Below are positions 53,680-61,251 of a DNA stretch of 61,251 nt, piece by piece. The stretch lies in contig CACIPT010000003.1 in the NCBI GenBank assembly GCA_902588595.1, positions 1 through 61,251 of the forward strand. The letters are read 5' to 3'. The number at the start of each line of letters is the position of its first letter. The stretch's first letter is position 1. The DNA is from an uncultured Pelagibacteraceae bacterium (GTDB lineage Bacteria; Pseudomonadota; Alphaproteobacteria; Pelagibacterales; Pelagibacteraceae). The position numbers and the translations under genes are program-made. The notes beneath the pieces were generated by a model. It was given only the letters and a program-made list of their open reading frames with translations. It did no database searches and was not told the DNA's origin.

Positions 53680-53988
53680 ATGAAATATTATAATTATTTT
53701 TTTATAACAATATTTATATTATTTACTCAAACTTTATGTGCAGATGAAATATTGGACTTAGGAAAAAATATTTTTTTAGAAAAAGGAAACTGTGCTACTT
53801 GCCATACTTTATCTGATGCTGGATCAAATGGAGATATTGGACCGAATTTAAATGTAATTAAGCCAGATGTTGGAAGAGTTGTTATGGCAGTAACAAATGG
53901 TATTGGAGTAATGCCGGCATATGAAGGCATGCTCACATCTAAAGAGATTGAAGCGGTTGCAATATATGTTTCAGAAAAATCAAATTAA
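53680..53988 (+). CDS. Secreted monohaem c-type cytochrome
   Basis: Small periplasmic class I cytochrome c, 102 residues. A signal peptide (about residues 1-21, YYNYFFITIFILFTQTLC, ending CADE) precedes the haem motif CATCH (38-42) and a likely axial Met78 in GIGVMPAYEGML; the C-terminal helix is TSKEIEAVAIYVSEK. Alone it could be any electron carrier. Its location, convergent with uraD and at the edge of a purine cluster whose urate oxidase lacks a cytochrome domain, suggests it takes electrons from that enzyme. That link is inferred. Confidence 0.92.
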   Translation: MKYYNYFFITIFILFTQTLCADEILDLGKNIFLEKGNCATCHTLSDAGSNGDIGPNLNVIKPDVGRVVMAVTNGIGVMPAYEGMLTSKEIEAVAIYVSEKSN

Positions 53989-53993
53989 TAAGT

Positions 53994-54488
53994 TTATTTT
54001 ATAATTTCTTCTAACCTAAAAGTTGCAATTTTTTTTACTTGTTTTTTTGCCTCAAGAAATTCTTCATCTAATGAATTTTTAATTCTTTCTCTAAAATAAT
54101 TCAAAATTTGATTTTTATTTTTTCCTTTCACAGCAATAATAAATGGAAAATTAAATTTTTTTTTATACTCAATATTTAATTTTTTAAATTCACTAAACTC
54201 TTCAGGTGTACATTCTTTTAAGTTAGCTTTACTTTGCTCAGCCTCTGAATTTGAAGTTAATTTTTTTTCTACTGCAAGTTCTGGATGTAAATTTAGAATT
54301 TCTAGTATAGTTTTGTTATCACTATTTTCATATATTCTTATTATTTCTGAAATAAAAGATTCTAAATTTTTGAATGGTTTTTGCTCAAACACCTTCTCGC
54401 TTATCCATTTTGATTTTTCAAATACATTTCCAAAAATTGATAAAAATTCAGATTTATCAAGATTATTAATTTTTTTAATATCAATCAT
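53994..54488 (-). CDS. uraD: OHCU decarboxylase (2-oxo-4-hydroxy-4-carboxy-5-ureidoimidazoline decarboxylase)
   Basis: Last step of uricolysis, giving S-allantoin. It has 164 residues, all-helical, with the active-site motif NLHPELAVEK (His68), the SEAEQSKANL stretch and FPFIIAVKGKNKNQIL, all UraD signatures. It is transcribed divergently from uraH across 64 AT-rich bases and convergently toward the cytochrome c gene with a 5-base gap. Confidence 0.93.
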   Translation of the reverse strand: MIDIKKINNLDKSEFLSIFGNVFEKSKWISEKVFEQKPFKNLESFISEIIRIYENSDNKTILEILNLHPELAVEKKLTSNSEAEQSKANLKECTPEEFSEFKKLNIEYKKKFNFPFIIAVKGKNKNQILNYFRERIKNSLDEEFLEAKKQVKKIATFRLEEIIK

Positions 54489-54552
54489 TTTGAAAATTTA
54501 TTTTAGTTGTTATTTATTAATTACTCAATATTGTATATAAATATTTTATCAT

Positions 54553-54903
54553 ATGACAAAATTAACAACTCATGTTTTAGACATTTACTCAGGTAAACCA
54601 GGTGCTGGAATAAAGGTAGAATTATATTATTTCAATAACAATCAAAGAGAGAAAAAAAATACACTAACATTAAATCAAGACGGAAGATCCGATGAACCAT
54701 TGCTTGAAGGTGAAAGTTTTTTGAATGGTAAATATGAGTTAGTTTTTTTTATTGGAGACTATTTTAAAAATATATCAAAATCAGATCAATTGCCTTTTTT
54801 GGATGATGTGGTTATTAGATTTGGTATTTCAAATTCAAAAGAACATTATCATGTTCCTTTACTCGTTTCTCCATGGAGCTATTCTACATATAGAGGTTCT
54901 TAG
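54553..54903 (+). CDS. uraH: 5-hydroxyisourate hydrolase (transthyretin-related protein)
   Basis: Hydrolyses 5-hydroxyisourate, the unstable product of urate oxidation, to OHCU. The family marks are the N-terminal LTTHVLDIYSGKPGAGI, the internal Arg-containing strand DGRSDEPLL, and the invariant C-terminal YRGS. It has 116 residues and no signal peptide. It is the first gene of uraH-xdhA-xdhB-guaD-puuD and abuts the xdhA GTG start. Confidence 0.95.
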   Translation: MTKLTTHVLDIYSGKPGAGIKVELYYFNNNQREKKNTLTLNQDGRSDEPLLEGESFLNGKYELVFFIGDYFKNISKSDQLPFLDDVVIRFGISNSKEHYHVPLLVSPWSYSTYRGS

Positions 54904-56340
54904 GTGAGTACAAACAAAGTTCAATTTATTTTTGAAAATAAATTAATTGAATTGGATAATCCTGACCCAAACCAAACCCTACTTAACTTTATAAGAGAGG
55001 AATTAAAAAAAACAGGTACCAAAGAAGGTTGTGCTGAAGGAGGATGTGGAGCCTGCACAGTGGTTTTAGGAGAAATGGAAAATAAAAAAATTAAATATAA
55101 AGCAGTTAATGCTTGTATATCTTTCACACCTATCTTGCACGGAAAACAACTGATAGTTGTTGAAAATTTAGTTTCAAAAAATGGCTCTTATCATCCTGTT
55201 CAGGAAGCAATGGCAAAATATCATGCATCTCAATGTGGTTTTTGCACGCCAGGTTTTGTTATGTCCATTTTTGCTATGTACAAAAATAAAAATAATAAAG
55301 ATGAAGACAACATTAAAGATGCTATATCAGGAAATTTATGTAGATGTACAGGTTATAGACCTATTATTGATGCTGCCAAGAGTTTAAAAAAAAAAACTAG
55401 ATATGATGAATTTGATCAAAATAATTCAAAAGTTATTAAATTATTAAAAAAAATTAATAATAAAAATATAATTATTAAAAACAAAAATAAAAAATACTTT
55501 GCTCCAAAAACAATTAATGAACTAAAAAAAATAATTCAACAAAATCCTAATTCAAATTTTTTAAGTGGTGGAACAGATTTATGTTTAATAGTTACAAAAA
55601 GTAGACAAGAAATAAAAGATATAATTAGTTTAAATGATATTAAAGAGCTTAATTTTATAAAAATTATTAACAATGAAATTAATATTGGCGCAACCACTCC
55701 ACTTATACAAGTTGAAAAATTTATTCAAAAATATTATCCCGACTTTCATAATATATTAAGAAGATATGGATCTGTACAAATAAGAAATGTTGGCACTATT
55801 GGTGGAAATATTGCAACAGCTTCACCTATTGGTGATACACTGCCTTTACTCATTTCTTTAAATAGTCGAATATTAATACAAACAAAGAAAAATAATAAAG
55901 AAATTTTCCTCAAAGACTTTTTTATTGGATATCGAAAAACTAGATTAAAAGCAGGTGAATTTATTAAATCTATAAAAATTCCTATTTACAAAAATCATAA
56001 ATTTAAAGCATACAAAATATCAAAAAGATTTGATGATGATATTTCGTCTGTATGTGCTTCCTTTAATTTTAGGATAAAAAACCAAAGGATTGAAGATGCT
56101 ATTATTGCATTTGGTGGCATGTCCGAGATTCCAAAAAGAGCAGACAAGTGTGAAAAATTTCTAATAAATTCTAAATTTTCAGTGGATATTTTTGAAAAAG
56201 CAAAAAATATATTAAAACAAGATTTTCGTCCTATTGATGATATGAGAGCATCAAAAAAATATAGATTAGAAGTTGCAGAGAATTTATTATTAAAATTTTT
56301 TTTAGAAACTAAATCAAATAAATTAATTAGAATAAATTAA
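54904..56340 (+). CDS. xdhA: Xanthine dehydrogenase small subunit (Fe-S/FAD)
   Basis: Electron-transfer subunit of xanthine dehydrogenase, 478 residues. The N-terminal plant-type [2Fe-2S] domain binds through Cys43, Cys48, Cys51 and Cys71 (EGCAEGGCGACTVV); the second cluster uses CGFC (111-114) and a later CRC in GNLCRCTGYRP. The FAD domain follows from about 195 (FLSGGTDLCL, IGGNIATASPIGD). Start is GTG at 54904, directly after the uraH stop. xdhB follows after 2 bases. Confidence 0.94.
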   Translation: MSTNKVQFIFENKLIELDNPDPNQTLLNFIREELKKTGTKEGCAEGGCGACTVVLGEMENKKIKYKAVNACISFTPILHGKQLIVVENLVSKNGSYHPVQEAMAKYHASQCGFCTPGFVMSIFAMYKNKNNKDEDNIKDAISGNLCRCTGYRPIIDAAKSLKKKTRYDEFDQNNSKVIKLLKKINNKNIIIKNKNKKYFAPKTINELKKIIQQNPNSNFLSGGTDLCLIVTKSRQEIKDIISLNDIKELNFIKIINNEINIGATTPLIQVEKFIQKYYPDFHNILRRYGSVQIRNVGTIGGNIATASPIGDTLPLLISLNSRILIQTKKNNKEIFLKDFFIGYRKTRLKAGEFIKSIKIPIYKNHKFKAYKISKRFDDDISSVCASFNFRIKNQRIEDAIIAFGGMSEIPKRADKCEKFLINSKFSVDIFEKAKNILKQDFRPIDDMRASKKYRLEVAENLLLKFFLETKSNKLIRIN

Positions 56341-56342
56341 TT

Positions 56343-58640
56343 ATGAAAAAACAGGATTATTTTAGTGAAAAGAGAATTCATGATAGCGCTTACAAGCATG
56401 TAAGTGGATTTGCAGAGTATACTGATGATATGAAAGAGCCAGATAGTACAATTTATGGTGCAATAGGCTGGAGCAAAAAAGCTCATGCGATAATAAAAAA
56501 AATAGATTTAAAAGATGTAAAATCAAGTGAGGGAGTAGTTTCTGTTGTTACTTTTAAAGATGTTCCTGGACGCAATGATGTAGGCCCAGTTTTTGATGGA
56601 GATCCTATTTTTGCAAATAATAAAGTTGAATTTTATGGACAACCTATTTTTGCAGTAGCTGCCAAATCTACAGAGTTTGCTAGAAAGGCAGTATTAAAGG
56701 CAAAGGTTTACTATAAAGAATTAAAACCCATAGTAACAATAAAAGAATCCTTAGCAAAAAAAAAGTTACTTTTTAAAATAAGAAAGATTAAAAGAGGAAA
56801 TCCGAACAATGCATTATTAAAATCAAAAAATCGATTTAAAGGAAATTTTACTACTGGTAGCCAAGAACATTTTTATTTAGAGGGGCAAGTTGCTTTTGTT
56901 GTTCCTAAAGAAGACAATAATATGCTTGTTTATAGTTCAACTCAACATCCTTCTGAAACTCAACAAATAATTGCCAAGATGTTAAATCAAAAAAGCAATT
57001 CAATAACAGTTTTAGTAAGAAGAATAGGTGGTGGTTTTGGCGGAAAAGAAACTAACTTTATGACCGCAAGTATTTGTTCATTGCTCGCTCACAAAACTAA
57101 ATGTCCAGTTAAACTTAGATTGGACAGAGATGATGATATTATTATAACTGGTAAAAGACATGAGTTTTTTTCAGATTATGAAGTTGGCTTTAGCGACAAA
57201 GGGGAAATAAAATCAGTAAAATTAAAACTTTCATCAAAATGTGGTATGTCACCAGATTTATCTTTAGCAATAAATGAAAGAGCTCTTCTTCATATAGATA
57301 ATGCTTATTTTATTCCAAATTTAGAAGTTAAAAATTATCTTTGTAAAACAAACACTTCTACTTCAACAGCGTTTAGAGGATTTGGAGGAAATCAAGGTAT
57401 GATGGCTATTGAAAATATTATTGATAACATTTCAAGATACTTAGGCAAAGATTCTTCTGAAATAAGAAAAATAAATTTTTACAAAAAAAATAGTAGAAAC
57501 ATAACACATTATGGAATGAAAATTGAAGATAATGTGATTAATGAGATATTCAACAAATTATTAAAAAAATCAAATTACAAAAAAAGATATTCTGAAATTA
57601 AAAAATTTAATTTAAAAAATAAATATAAGAAAAAAGGAATATCAATCACACCAGTAAAATTTGGTATATCTTTTACTACAATTCATTTAAACCAAGCTGG
57701 AGCTTTGGTTCATATTTATACTGATGGTAGTGTACATTTAAACCATGGAGGAATTGAAATGGGACAAGGTACTCATACAAAAATAGCTCAATTAGTTTCA
57801 AAATCATTTGGTATTCCTTACGAAAAAGTTCAAATATCATCAACAAATACATCCAAGGTTCCGAATACTTCTGCGAGCGCAGCCTCATCCACTACGGATC
57901 TTAATGGTGCAGCTGCTTTAGATGCTGTAAAAAAAATAAAACTAAATTTAGAAAAATTTATAAAAAATAAATACAAAATATCAGTCAAAAATAATGTGGT
58001 TTATAAAAATGAAAAAATTTTTATTGGAAAGTATATTTTTAAATTTAATGACATTGTTCAAGAAGCTTACTTAAATCGTATATCTCTTTCTTCAAATGGA
58101 TTTTACTCCACACCAAAGATTAATTTTAACAAAAAAAAATTTTATGGAAGACCATTTTTATATTTTTGTTATGGTGCAGCTGTAACTGAAGTTACAATAG
58201 ATACTTTAACTGGTGAAAATATAATAGATACAGTTGACATATTACACGACGCAGGAAATGCAATTAATCCAGCTTTAGAGCTTGGTCAGATTGAAGGAGG
58301 TTTTGTCCAAGGCCAGGGTTGGCTTACAATGGAGGAAGTTAATTGGAAATCTAATGGACAAATAACTACCTTTTCTCCTTCTACATATAAAATTCCGGCC
58401 GTTAGTGATATCCCTAGAAAATTTAGAGTAGAAATTTATAAAGAGGGAAAAAATAAAGAGGAAGTCATAAATAAAGCCAAAACTACTGGAGAACCGCCTT
58501 TAATGTTGGCGATGAGTGTATTTTTTGCAATAAAGGACGCTATAGCTTCAACATCAAATTATAAAAAAATACCTGAATTAAATGCTCCTGCAACACCTGA
58601 AAAAATTTTATTAAGCATAAGTAGGTTAAAAAATAATTAA
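56343..58640 (+). CDS. xdhB: Xanthine dehydrogenase large (molybdopterin) subunit
   Basis: Molybdenum-cofactor subunit that oxidises hypoxanthine to xanthine and xanthine to urate. It has 765 residues. Visible motifs are GSQEHFYLEGQ, RRIGGGFGGKE, STAFRGFGGNQGM (with the conserved Arg of xanthine dehydrogenases), GGIEMGQGTHTK, and the general-base Glu in TTGEPPLMLA. The cofactor-insertion protein XdhC is not encoded within the window. It is flanked by xdhA and guaD with 2-base gaps. Confidence 0.94.
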   Translation: MKKQDYFSEKRIHDSAYKHVSGFAEYTDDMKEPDSTIYGAIGWSKKAHAIIKKIDLKDVKSSEGVVSVVTFKDVPGRNDVGPVFDGDPIFANNKVEFYGQPIFAVAAKSTEFARKAVLKAKVYYKELKPIVTIKESLAKKKLLFKIRKIKRGNPNNALLKSKNRFKGNFTTGSQEHFYLEGQVAFVVPKEDNNMLVYSSTQHPSETQQIIAKMLNQKSNSITVLVRRIGGGFGGKETNFMTASICSLLAHKTKCPVKLRLDRDDDIIITGKRHEFFSDYEVGFSDKGEIKSVKLKLSSKCGMSPDLSLAINERALLHIDNAYFIPNLEVKNYLCKTNTSTSTAFRGFGGNQGMMAIENIIDNISRYLGKDSSEIRKINFYKKNSRNITHYGMKIEDNVINEIFNKLLKKSNYKKRYSEIKKFNLKNKYKKKGISITPVKFGISFTTIHLNQAGALVHIYTDGSVHLNHGGIEMGQGTHTKIAQLVSKSFGIPYEKVQISSTNTSKVPNTSASAASSTTDLNGAAALDAVKKIKLNLEKFIKNKYKISVKNNVVYKNEKIFIGKYIFKFNDIVQEAYLNRISLSSNGFYSTPKINFNKKKFYGRPFLYFCYGAAVTEVTIDTLTGENIIDTVDILHDAGNAINPALELGQIEGGFVQGQGWLTMEEVNWKSNGQITTFSPSTYKIPAVSDIPRKFRVEIYKEGKNKEEVINKAKTTGEPPLMLAMSVFFAIKDAIASTSNYKKIPELNAPATPEKILLSISRLKNN

Positions 58641-58642
58641 TT

Positions 58643-59113
58643 ATGACTGAAAAAAATCTTTACATGATGAGAGCAATAGAGCTTTCAATTGAAAGTGCCA
58701 AATCTAAAGGTGGGCCATTTGGATGTGTTATTGTAAAAAATAATAAAATTATTGCAGAAGGCTCTAATAAAGTAACCATGAACAATGATCCAACTGCACA
58801 TGGAGAAATTGTTGCAATTAGAGAAGCATGTAAAAAATTGAATACTTTTAATCTTTCTGGATGTGATTTGTATTCAAGTTGTGAACCATGTCCAATGTGT
58901 TTATCTGCAATATATTGGTCACGAATTGAAAATATTTTTTATGCAAACACAAGAACTGACGCAAAGAGCATAGATTTTGACGATTCATTTATTTATTCCG
59001 AAATTAATAAAGATTTAGAAAATAGAAAAATTAAAATGCATCAAATGCATAGAGATGAAGCACTAGAAGCATTTAAAATTTGGGAAAAAAAAGAAGACAA
59101 AATTAAATACTAA
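58643..59113 (+). CDS. guaD: Guanine deaminase, cytidine-deaminase fold
   Basis: Zinc deaminase of the CDA superfamily, closest in pattern to Bacillus-type guanine deaminase. The zinc site is His53-Ala-Glu... in TAHGEIVAIREA (His53, catalytic Glu55) with Cys83 and Cys86 in CEPCPMC. The C-terminal tail (KMHQMHRDEALEAFKIWE) fits GuaD. It has 156 residues. It would turn guanine into xanthine for the adjacent xanthine dehydrogenase. The stop overlaps the next ATG (TAATG). tRNA adenosine deaminase is the main alternative but lacks this context. Confidence 0.9.
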   Translation: MTEKNLYMMRAIELSIESAKSKGGPFGCVIVKNNKIIAEGSNKVTMNNDPTAHGEIVAIREACKKLNTFNLSGCDLYSSCEPCPMCLSAIYWSRIENIFYANTRTDAKSIDFDDSFIYSEINKDLENRKIKMHQMHRDEALEAFKIWEKKEDKIKY

Positions 59114-60024
59114 TGGAATTTTTATCTTACTCAATGAAATGGCTAGAACTCATTTTAAGATGGGGTCATGTACTATTTGCAATATTATGGGTTGGAAATA
59201 GTTTTTTATTTAATTACTTAGATAATAAATTAAACAAAAAAATATCGAGCAAAGATGTTGATGGCGAAGGATATCTTATGCATTCAGGTTATTATTACAA
59301 ACTTTCTAGACTAAAAGTATCACCACCAAAAAATTATTTAAGGAGTTTAACGATTTTTAAATGGCAAAGTTATCTAACTTTTATAACTGGAATTTTGTTA
59401 CTTGGTGTAATTTACTACTATAAGTCTGGTATATTAATGGTAGATAAAAGAATTCTAGAAATTTTACCTTCTACTGCAATAATATTTTCTTTATTTTCAC
59501 TAATTATATCTTGGCTTGTTTATGATTTTTTATGCAAATCAAGCTTTATAAAAAATAATGTTTTATTTGTTTTTACAATTTTCATTTTGCTTATTTTAAT
59601 ATCATATGGATTTACTCAAATTTATGGGGCAAAATTTGCATTTTTAAGTGTTGGTCTAATAATAGGTACAAATATGTTTGGAAATGTATTTACAGTTATT
59701 ATTCCAAATCAAGAGAATATAATTAATAGTAGTAAGAGAAACAAAAAATTTGACCAAAGTTTATCCTTAGCTGCAAAACAAAGATCTATACACAATAATT
59801 ATTCGACTTTTTTAGTTTTATTTATAATGTTATCAGGTCACTACAGCTTTATAGTTTATCATAAATACAGTTGGTTAATTTTAAGTGCTATTGCAGTAAT
59901 TTCAGTTCTAGCAAGGCACTATTTTAATTTAAGAGGAAGAAACATTCACAGGTTGTATATCTTAATAACATCTATTGTATCTTTAATTTTACTTGCAGTT
60001 TTAATTTTAATTTTTAAGAATTAA
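59113..60024 (+). CDS. puuD: PuuD-type membrane urate oxidase, membrane domain only
   Basis: Integral-membrane urate oxidase (formerly DUF989). The start LELILRWGHVLFAILWVGNS and the FNYLDNKL and GGxY-like segments (GEGYLMHSGYYYKLSRLK) are family features; about eight hydrophobic helices follow and the protein ends at residue 303 in the last one (SIVSLILLAVLILIFKN). Characterised PuuD proteins carry an extra C-terminal cytochrome c domain of roughly 100 residues; here there is none and no CxxCH. Being last-but-one in the xdh-guaD cluster, it supplies the missing urate-to-hydroxyisourate step. Confidence 0.87.
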   Translation: MEFLSYSMKWLELILRWGHVLFAILWVGNSFLFNYLDNKLNKKISSKDVDGEGYLMHSGYYYKLSRLKVSPPKNYLRSLTIFKWQSYLTFITGILLLGVIYYYKSGILMVDKRILEILPSTAIIFSLFSLIISWLVYDFLCKSSFIKNNVLFVFTIFILLILISYGFTQIYGAKFAFLSVGLIIGTNMFGNVFTVIIPNQENIINSSKRNKKFDQSLSLAAKQRSIHNNYSTFLVLFIMLSGHYSFIVYHKYSWLILSAIAVISVLARHYFNLRGRNIHRLYILITSIVSLILLAVLILIFKN

Positions 60025-60038
60025 AATTATAGAAAATT

Positions 60039-60563
60039 ATGTCAGAAAAATTAATCGTAAGTTGGGATCAATATAACGAAACTGTAGAGAAGCTTGCAAT
60101 TCAAATTGAAGAAAGTGGTTACAAGCCATCAATTTTAATTGGTATTATGCGCGGAGGTGCTCCAATGATAGATGTTTTAAGCAGAGTATTTAAATTGAAA
60201 TGTGCTTACTTGGCAGTTGAGTCTTATAGCGGTAAAGGAGTAGAGGATGAACAGGGCGATATAGTATTTTCTAGAGAAATGAGTTCAATAGCTCCAAATA
60301 TGGGTGGCAAAATTTTACTTTGTGATGATTTATCTGATACAGGAATTACATTTAACAAAAGTGTAGATTGGTTAAGGGCTTATGAACCAATTAAAGGTAA
60401 AATTGAAGATATTAAAACCGCTACACTTTGGAAAAAAAAAAAATCGACTTTTGAACCTGATTTTTGTGCAGTAAAATTAGAAGCTAATCCTTGGATAGTG
60501 CAACCATTTGAAATTTACGAAGAAATAAGAATTGAAGATATAAAGAAAAAACACCAAAAATAA
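60039..60563 (+). CDS. Purine phosphoribosyltransferase
   Basis: Type I phosphoribosyltransferase of 174 residues, likely acting on xanthine, guanine or hypoxanthine. The PRPP-binding motif is ILLCDDLSDTGITFNKS, with an upstream GIMRGGAPM loop. Placement 14 bases after the urate oxidase gene and before a purine permease suggests salvage of the same bases the cluster can degrade. Exact substrate is not readable. An A12 tract lies at 60432-60443. A bidirectional terminator follows. Confidence 0.87.
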   Translation: MSEKLIVSWDQYNETVEKLAIQIEESGYKPSILIGIMRGGAPMIDVLSRVFKLKCAYLAVESYSGKGVEDEQGDIVFSREMSSIAPNMGGKILLCDDLSDTGITFNKSVDWLRAYEPIKGKIEDIKTATLWKKKKSTFEPDFCAVKLEANPWIVQPFEIYEEIRIEDIKKKHQK

Positions 60564-60565
60564 AA

Positions 60566-60593
60566 AGGGCGACTATAAAGCCGCCCTATTTTT
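60566..60593. terminator. Bidirectional intrinsic terminator
   Basis: AGGGCG (60566-60571) pairs with CGCCCT (60582-60587), extended by two more pairs after one mismatch, and is followed by five T on the plus strand and, read on the minus strand, by a T-rich run. It lies 2 bases after the phosphoribosyltransferase stop and 20 bases beyond the permease stop, so it can end both convergent transcripts. It is the only GC-rich terminator hairpin I see in the window. Confidence 0.88.
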
Positions 60594-60608
60594 CAAACTT
60601 TTTAATTT

Positions 60609-61251
60609 TTAAGCTACAGCAAAACTGATTACACTTAGTATAGCAATAACCCAAATTGCTGGACTTGTTGAATCAATTTTACCTGTACAAATCTTAATTG
60701 CAGCATATGAAACAAATGCCAAAGCTATTCCATGAGAAATAGAATAAGTAAATGGCATTGCAATCATAGCAAGCACCGCTGGTCCTGCCTCTGCTATATC
60801 ATCCCATTCTATATCTGTAATGTTTCTTACGAAAAGAGTAGCAATATATATTAAGGCTGCACCATCAATCTCTTTTGGAAGAGATGTAGCTAGTGGACTG
60901 AAGAATAAACATGCTAGGAAAAGAACTCCTATAACAAGAGAAGTCATTCCTGTTTTGCCTCCAGCTTTTACTCCAGCAGCTGACTCTACATAAGTTGTTA
61001 CAGTTGATGTACCTAACATAGCACCCGCAACAGTAGAAGCACTGTCTGATAGCATTGCTTTATCGATGTCTTTAATTTTTCCATCACTTCCAACTTTTCC
61101 AGCTACGTTTGCAACACTAGTTAATGTTCCAGCAGTATCAAAAAAGTCGATAAAGAATAAAGTAAAAATTACAGTTACCATCGATGCACTAAGCGCTGCA
61201 CCCAAGTCAAACGTCATCAGGTGTGTCATTGGCGGCGGCGAAGAAACAACT
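60609..61251 (-). CDS. NCS2-family purine permease (AzgA-like), truncated by window edge
   Basis: C-terminal half of a nucleobase:cation symporter of the AzgA-like purine permease group. Visible are FTLFFIDFFDTAGTLTSVAN, SASTVAGAMLGTSTVTTYVESAAGV and several membrane helices. The frame stays open past the ATG at 61227-61229 to the window edge (VVSSPPPMTHLM), so the real start lies outside and about 200 or more residues are missing. Likely substrates are adenine, guanine, hypoxanthine or xanthine, fitting the adjacent catabolic genes. Confidence 0.9.
   Translation of the reverse strand, partial: VVSSPPPMTHLMTFDLGAALSASMVTVIFTLFFIDFFDTAGTLTSVANVAGKVGSDGKIKDIDKAMLSDSASTVAGAMLGTSTVTTYVESAAGVKAGGKTGMTSLVIGVLFLACLFFSPLATSLPKEIDGAALIYIATLFVRNITDIEWDDIAEAGPAVLAMIAMPFTYSISHGIALAFVSYAAIKICTGKIDSTSPAIWVIAILSVISFAVA

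Follow-up and report, generated by a model that had tools for sequence, protein, structure and literature searches.

The window, that is, the whole stretch of 61,251 nucleotides analysed here, belongs to the genome of an SAR11 bacterium (Pelagibacteraceae) assembled in 47 contigs and 64% complete. It carries a purine block in which a cytochrome gene on the plus strand is followed by uraD on the minus strand, by uraH, xdhA, xdhB, a deaminase gene, puuD and a phosphoribosyltransferase gene, all on the plus strand, and by a permease gene on the minus strand, truncated by the end of the window (Table 1). The cytochrome gene is convergent with uraD, with 5 bases between their stop codons, and divergent from a glycosyltransferase gene; therefore, it does not form one operon with puuD, and it has its own promoter region, separate from the puuD operon.

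Table 1. Features of the purine block, in coordinates of the window.
Feature	Position	Strand	Basis
P0001, SorU-family monohaem cytochrome c, 102 aa	53680..53988	+	Cytochrome_CBB3 E 3e-10; NCBIfam SorU 93.3 bits; 4pw9 E 1.5e-22; secretion judged by eye
Haem-binding motif CATCH, residues 38-42 of P0001	53791..53805	+	translation
uraD, OHCU decarboxylase	53994..54488	-	TIGR03164 above cut-off
uraH, hydroxyisourate hydrolase	54553..54903	+	TIGR02962 above cut-off
xdhA, xanthine dehydrogenase small subunit	54904..56340	+	TIGR02963 above cut-off
xdhB, xanthine dehydrogenase molybdopterin subunit	56343..58640	+	TIGR02965 above cut-off
Cytidine/purine deaminase family protein, probably a purine deaminase	58643..59113	+	Pfam dCMP_cyt_deam_1; putative purine role from context and the consulted parts of PMC11698098
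P0002, PuuD homologue with full-length Urate_ox_N, without cytochrome domain, 303 aa	59113..60024	+	PF06181 E 5e-88; no CxxCH
Last hydrophobic segment of P0002, residues 283-301	59959..60015	+	hydropathy scan
Phosphoribosyltransferase, downstream of puuD	60039..60563	+	Pfam Pribosyltran

PuuD is the cytochrome c urate oxidase known from Agrobacterium fabrum (Atu2314) and belongs to PF06181, formerly DUF989; a C-terminal cytochrome c domain was found in all its full-length members and taken for an essential part of the enzyme (Doniselli et al. 2015, PMC4562309). The original prediction held that the PuuD homologue of the window lacks this domain, and this has been borne out. In the profile search proposed with it for the 303-residue protein, residues 6-297 of P0002 align with positions 2-293 of the 295 of the Pfam Urate_ox_N profile (E 5e-88), and CxxCH is absent from the scanned translation. 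The protein had also been described as ending inside its last membrane helix, which needs correction, since the hydropathy scan places its C-terminus just after the presumed helix 8, two residues past the last hydrophobic segment. Only 14 bases separate the puuD stop codon from the next gene, so that a hidden domain has no room. The N-terminal transmembrane helices of P0002 escape a simple hydropathy scan, and eight long helices appear only in an AlphaFold2 model built from 28 SAR11 rows, which is poor (pLDDT 49, pTM 0.36); a sequence search returned no solved structure related to the membrane domain. A frameshift or a misassembly was considered as the origin of the short protein and discarded, as 80 further contigs end puuD in the same way, and the spacing to the next gene is 9-18 bases in further SAR11 contigs where it is measurable. 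Thus, like the A. fabrum enzyme, the SAR11 protein has a full-length membrane domain, most of the conserved residues, and uraH, uraD and xdhAB as neighbours; unlike it, it carries no cytochrome c, with its CxxCH and Met ligand, fused to the C-terminus. Judged by homology, the SAR11 membrane domain is that of a PuuD, although the fused cytochrome, a defining feature of these enzymes, is missing.

CxxCH occurs in none of the 81 SAR11 PuuD proteins read (the one of the window plus the best 80 of 290 loci), of which 79 have 302-303 residues, one has 304 and one (L003) is a 449-residue frame reaching into the next gene. Beyond SAR11, two panels with some genomes in common were surveyed for matches with E <1e-80, whose open frames were counted by hand according to length, frame length being taken as a proxy for fusion. 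The class panel of 385 alphaproteobacterial genomes holds 90 PuuD places, 88 with frames of at least 395 aa and two short ones, those of the window (305) and of genome G228 (308); weaker matches do not enter this count, namely G392 and G470 at the ends of contigs, G333, whose frame of 842 aa matches with E 4e-35, and partial matches. In the phylum panel (398 genomes), 117 of 119 PuuD places reach at least 399 aa, the remaining two being the window and G1002, the latter cut by a contig end. By this proxy, fusion is indicated for 88 of the 89 uncut PuuD that the class panel holds outside SAR11, and for all 117 that the phylum panel holds there; 39 of the 88 class-panel places were checked directly, and CxxCH was present in 39 of 39. 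Altogether the motif was found in 41 of the 42 PuuD loci read, two of which represent one gene and one of which is G333.

The exception is G228, a genome outside SAR11, with a second and separate PuuD devoid of the cytochrome domain (L191 9271-10182), which adjoins uraH. No CxxCH was detected in any frame of the 19.5 kb around this gene, which places the nearest haem protein, if any, more than 9 kb away, and seven CBB3-type matches lie elsewhere in the genome, away from puuD. Domain loss can therefore occur without a linked cytochrome. Within SAR11, six PuuD of the sister genera g281 and g284 (L270-L275) have 273-280 aa and have lost the last helix too, which suggests that the C-terminus has been lost by steps, involving both the cytochrome domain and the last helix.

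Other architectures related to this domain were encountered during the survey. At L003 (10001-11350) and L213 (genome G745), PuuD and the downstream phosphoribosyltransferase share one open frame of 449-451 aa. The protein of G333 (L192 5379-7850), with 823 aa, a distant Urate_ox_N match and CxxCH at residue 751, represents an unusual large PuuD-like architecture. Moreover, most of the SAR11 relatives searched (e.g., L095-L110) contain a protein, about 200 aa long, which matches Urate_ox_N only in part and is probably of the four-helix DUF989 type. The four-helix DUF989 proteins (PMC4562309) share part of the domain and are also devoid of a cytochrome, but they match only about positions 157-250 of the profile, against 2-293 for the protein of the window.

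The short PuuD has kept most of what is invariant in the fused enzymes. Among 39 fused PuuD rows, 63 columns carry one residue in at least 95% of cases, 9 of them within the cytochrome domain and 54 outside it; 40 of these 54 positions are unchanged across all 12 short SAR11 rows and 14 are altered in at least one. The positions kept include R16, H19, D37, H57, K83, H227, H243, R268 and N272, and the conserved histidines could be putative holders of an internal cofactor. The median pairwise dN/dS is 0.114 for PuuD and 0.118 for XdhB, with values of 0.189 for UraH, 0.242 for UraD, 0.216 for the cytochrome and 0.221 for the neighbouring glycosyltransferase. Conservation and dN/dS together form the pattern expected from a working enzyme, which may oxidise urate. 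It could be argued that a protein deprived of a domain found invariant in PMC4562309, and with relatives in g281 and g284 that have also lost the last helix, is no longer an oxidase, but is either undergoing gene decay or acting as a transporter of urate. This is very improbable taking into account the constraint on the gene, which is similar to that on XdhB, the conserved positions retained, the separate permease gene within the block, and the fact that Pfam and NCBIfam profiles detect no second urate oxidase within the block, which also contains uraH and uraD.

As to the second protein, the original prediction of a secreted monohaem cytochrome beside uraD agrees with what is found: P0001 is a class I cytochrome c with a single CATCH motif, a start that resembles a signal peptide when judged by eye, and a calculated pI of 4.5 for its mature part. 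The same prediction regarded the two proteins as a split enzyme, and this part does not stand. Against a profile built from the fused cytochrome domains of PuuD, no SAR11 cytochrome scores above 8.5 bits, which rules out fission with the free cytochrome as the detached domain, whereas P0001 scores 93.3 bits with SorU, its best curated family, a value below the NCBIfam cut-off of 100. Its best solved relative is the SorU of Sinorhizobium meliloti (4pw9). In sequence terms, the free cytochrome is a replacement recruited from the SorU family and not a fission product. In the consulted parts of PMC4760952, SorU is described as the diffusing acceptor of the sulfite dehydrogenase SorT, with a Kd of 13.5 micromolar. 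The cytochrome of the window resembles this protein in sequence family, single haem, low pI and secretion (by eye in the case of P0001), and differs from it in its score below the cut-off, in its location in a purine block and in having no adjacent SorT.

Four settings were found for SAR11 relatives of P0001. Besides the purine block, they occur in an apr cluster that also carries TauE, xsc and suyAB, next to SorT, and in the interval separating rpoB from rpoC. TauE and the SorT molybdopterin fold were identified by Pfam; the labels AprA, AprB, AprM, SuyA, SuyB, Xsc, SoxW and, with a query, DsrC are what we take these proteins to be from the look of their sequences. In a tree of the cytochromes (109 rows, 82 columns, support mostly low), four of the seven apr-linked copies from the genus of the window fall inside the purine-type group (support 81-86), and the other three branch at the base without resolution; SorT-linked cytochromes cluster with apr-linked copies of other genera (support 87). 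Three apr-cluster cytochromes (L204 6245-6571, L206 6396-6716 and L208 6356-6667) overlap or abut the gene for the TauE sulfite exporter, an arrangement suggesting that such a cytochrome may be coupled to the handling of sulfite with no SorT adjacent to it.

These kinships allow a reading in which the small cytochrome is a SorU-type carrier of sulfite oxidation, a chance neighbour of purine genes in some lineages and unrelated to urate. The affiliation to SorU and the relatives that adjoin SorT, or overlap or abut TauE, are in its favour, but we consider it improbable. No SorT was found among the neighbours of P0001 in the window, nor beside the purine-site copies at the loci examined, and genome G751 carries both types, with a SorT-linked copy in addition to, and separate from, the purine-site one. 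In addition, AprA, as we label it, was found in 28 of 30 genomes, including 18 of 20 PuuD-less ones, and none of these 20 has a cytochrome match; the apr cluster alone does not, therefore, bring the cytochrome.

The distribution of the cytochrome was analysed in a family panel of 298 SAR11 genomes, all at least 75% complete except that of the window. PuuD matches occur in 47 of them, two being short fragments (G501, G514). P0001 matches of at least 97 bits are present in 33 genomes, all 33 of which have PuuD; this cut was chosen after inspection of the table, and in the next genome down, G535, the match reaches 94 bits and is apr-linked, and PuuD was not detected. When matches of any strength are considered, the cytochrome is found in 43 of 47 PuuD-containing genomes vs 30 of 251 PuuD-less ones; the Fisher tests on these counts ignore relatedness. 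In the genus of the window, 39 genomes have PuuD, of which 32 show a strong cytochrome match, five a weaker one only (65-70 bits; G603, G645, G665, G757 and G776, with SorT adjoining in the two examined, G603 and G776) and two none (G022 and G715, whose contigs break within the block). Among the eight PuuD-containing genomes outside this genus, G510 and G547 gave no cytochrome match. In G564, a PuuD-containing genome 98% complete, the only PF13442 match is this cytochrome.

A genus panel of 61 genomes gave 14 full-length or contig-cut PuuD and 13 strong cytochrome matches, with both in 11 genomes, and five further weaker cytochrome matches, none in a genome with PuuD. In the three genomes with PuuD only (G015, G022, G052), contigs end short of the place where the cytochrome is expected. 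Of two candidates for a purine-type cytochrome in a PuuD-less genome, G053 proved to carry the purine block, which a contig end interrupts ahead of puuD; G020 is a doubtful case, its site layout being that of G487, whose PuuD is elsewhere (L023). The site between the DNA glycosylase gene and the phosphoribosyltransferase gene was also read in six genomes chosen from the PuuD-less rows, at least 96% complete (G397, G522, G012, G307, G515 and G589), and neither purine genes nor the cytochrome were found there. At this site in six PuuD-less genomes (L406-L411), the phosphoribosyltransferase is only 56-60% identical to that of the window (60039-61250 compared), and in five of the six the permease differs too (75% identity); both genes seem to change along with the purine block.

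At the level of individual loci, the cytochrome lies in the purine block at 55 of the 81 SAR11 PuuD loci, 17 times beside uraD and 38 times beside a puuE-allA-alc extension. Among the 26 loci where it is not visible, 18 have a contig that ends before the expected place: in 13 the contig begins within the block and uraD and the cytochrome are both absent, and in five (L007, L009, L017, L028, L066) it stops in or near uraD or its operon. The other eight (L008, L020, L023, L030, L035, L041, L044, L063) have room and no local copy, so that the expectation that a short PuuD would always carry the cytochrome in its cluster fails. The whole genomes of these eight loci and of L007, L009, L017 and L066 were searched for it, with a match in eight of the 12. 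In five (L020, L030, L035, L041, L063) a relative sits in an apr/xsc sulfur cluster (105-130 bits); in that of L044 the only match adjoins SorT (69 bits); and in those of L017 and L066 the cytochrome is on another contig, beside the remainder of the purine block. No match was found in the genomes of L008 and L023, which have room at the locus, nor was there one in the genomes of L007 and L009, where the end of the contig interrupts the block. The copies that adjoin SorT suggest that SorU may substitute as acceptor in PuuD-containing genomes holding only a SorT-type copy.

The original prediction of a two-protein enzyme is thus upheld insofar as most genomes with an assembled purine block have the cytochrome together with it. 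A partnership between PuuD and the cytochrome is supported, in which both proteins would interact physically. Few independent lineages stand behind this linkage, and their independence is weak. Four changes in PuuD have to be assumed on a tree of AprA from 28 genomes, and the cytochrome follows in three of the four independent contrasts and is equal in one (p 0.25). This scarcity leaves a place for another proposal, according to which the short PuuD oxidises urate and passes the electrons to a core cytochrome c, membrane-anchored and about 180 residues long, to quinone or to any soluble cytochrome, the small cytochrome being optional and present in the block mainly by common descent. Frames of 175-197 aa for a class I cytochrome exist in both PuuD-containing and PuuD-less genomes (G000, G564, G645, G603, G307, G397, G515 and others), some PuuD-containing genomes have a SorT-type copy only or no match, and the short PuuD of G228 has no linked cytochrome. 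Nevertheless, we regard a general carrier as rather unlikely, as the genomes with a strong match all contain PuuD, relocated copies of the cytochrome have been retained in PuuD-containing genomes, and block and cytochrome are jointly absent at the six PuuD-less sites.

On balance, we favour as probable that SAR11 possesses a two-protein urate:cytochrome c reductase, formed by the short PuuD and a free SorU-family cytochrome that is not a detached PuuD domain. NAD is the acceptor for xanthine dehydrogenase of this type, and none is needed by the hydrolase, the decarboxylase or the deaminase; the natural acceptor for PuuD would therefore be a free cytochrome of the periplasm that accompanies the block. 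It has been argued that PuuD has both termini outside, oxidising urate at the cytosolic face with its cytochrome outside (PMC4562309), and, if this topology is right, the short PuuD would deliver electrons outside without a tethered haem. Thus, urate would be oxidised by the membrane domain of PuuD, and the product would be handled by cytosolic UraH and UraD. The tethered cytochrome being gone, electrons would exit on the periplasmic side to the free acidic cytochrome c, which would dock there and carry them on towards cytochrome oxidase. This carrier would have been recruited from the family that serves the sulfite dehydrogenase SorT. More tentatively, it is possible that the urate oxidase has been dismantled by steps, with the acceptor role passing to a SorU-family cytochrome shared or traded between sulfite and urate oxidation.

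Under this more tentative reading, urate oxidation would proceed through a respiratory urate:cytochrome c reductase whose acceptor diffuses freely and in which the membrane domain of PuuD alone provides the catalytic site and the electron path across the membrane. To our knowledge, the way in which PuuD oxidises urate has not been worked out in the literature. Such a natural lineage deprived of the domain, in very abundant bacteria of the ocean, would be evidence that the membrane domain can work uncoupled from the cytochrome, would let catalysis and electron transfer be assayed apart, and would connect purine turnover in the sea with respiration by way of a cytochrome whose family is known from the oxidation of sulfite.

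An SAR11 purine catabolism cluster with the same genes is already known from the consulted parts of PMC11698098, where PuuD is named as urate oxidase; the word cytochrome does not occur in its main text, and its consulted passages mention neither the missing domain nor a free cytochrome. In the parts consulted of the open-access literature, including PMC12021255, PMC12423496, PMC12636525, PMC5840417 and PMC12507026, neither a full-length PuuD devoid of the cytochrome domain nor the free cytochrome that goes with it was found to be described. The puuD listed in PMC12636525, in the passages seen, among the polyamine genes puuBCD of coastal SAR11 is apparently a different gene with the same name.

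Finally, five SAR11 genomes that lack a full-length PuuD have, between rpoB and rpoC, the gene for a haem c protein of 102-104 aa from the same wide family as P0001 (L176 10244-10552, L177 9500-9808, L301 5157-5471, L302 5031-5339 and L303 5090-5398), an odd location for a cytochrome.
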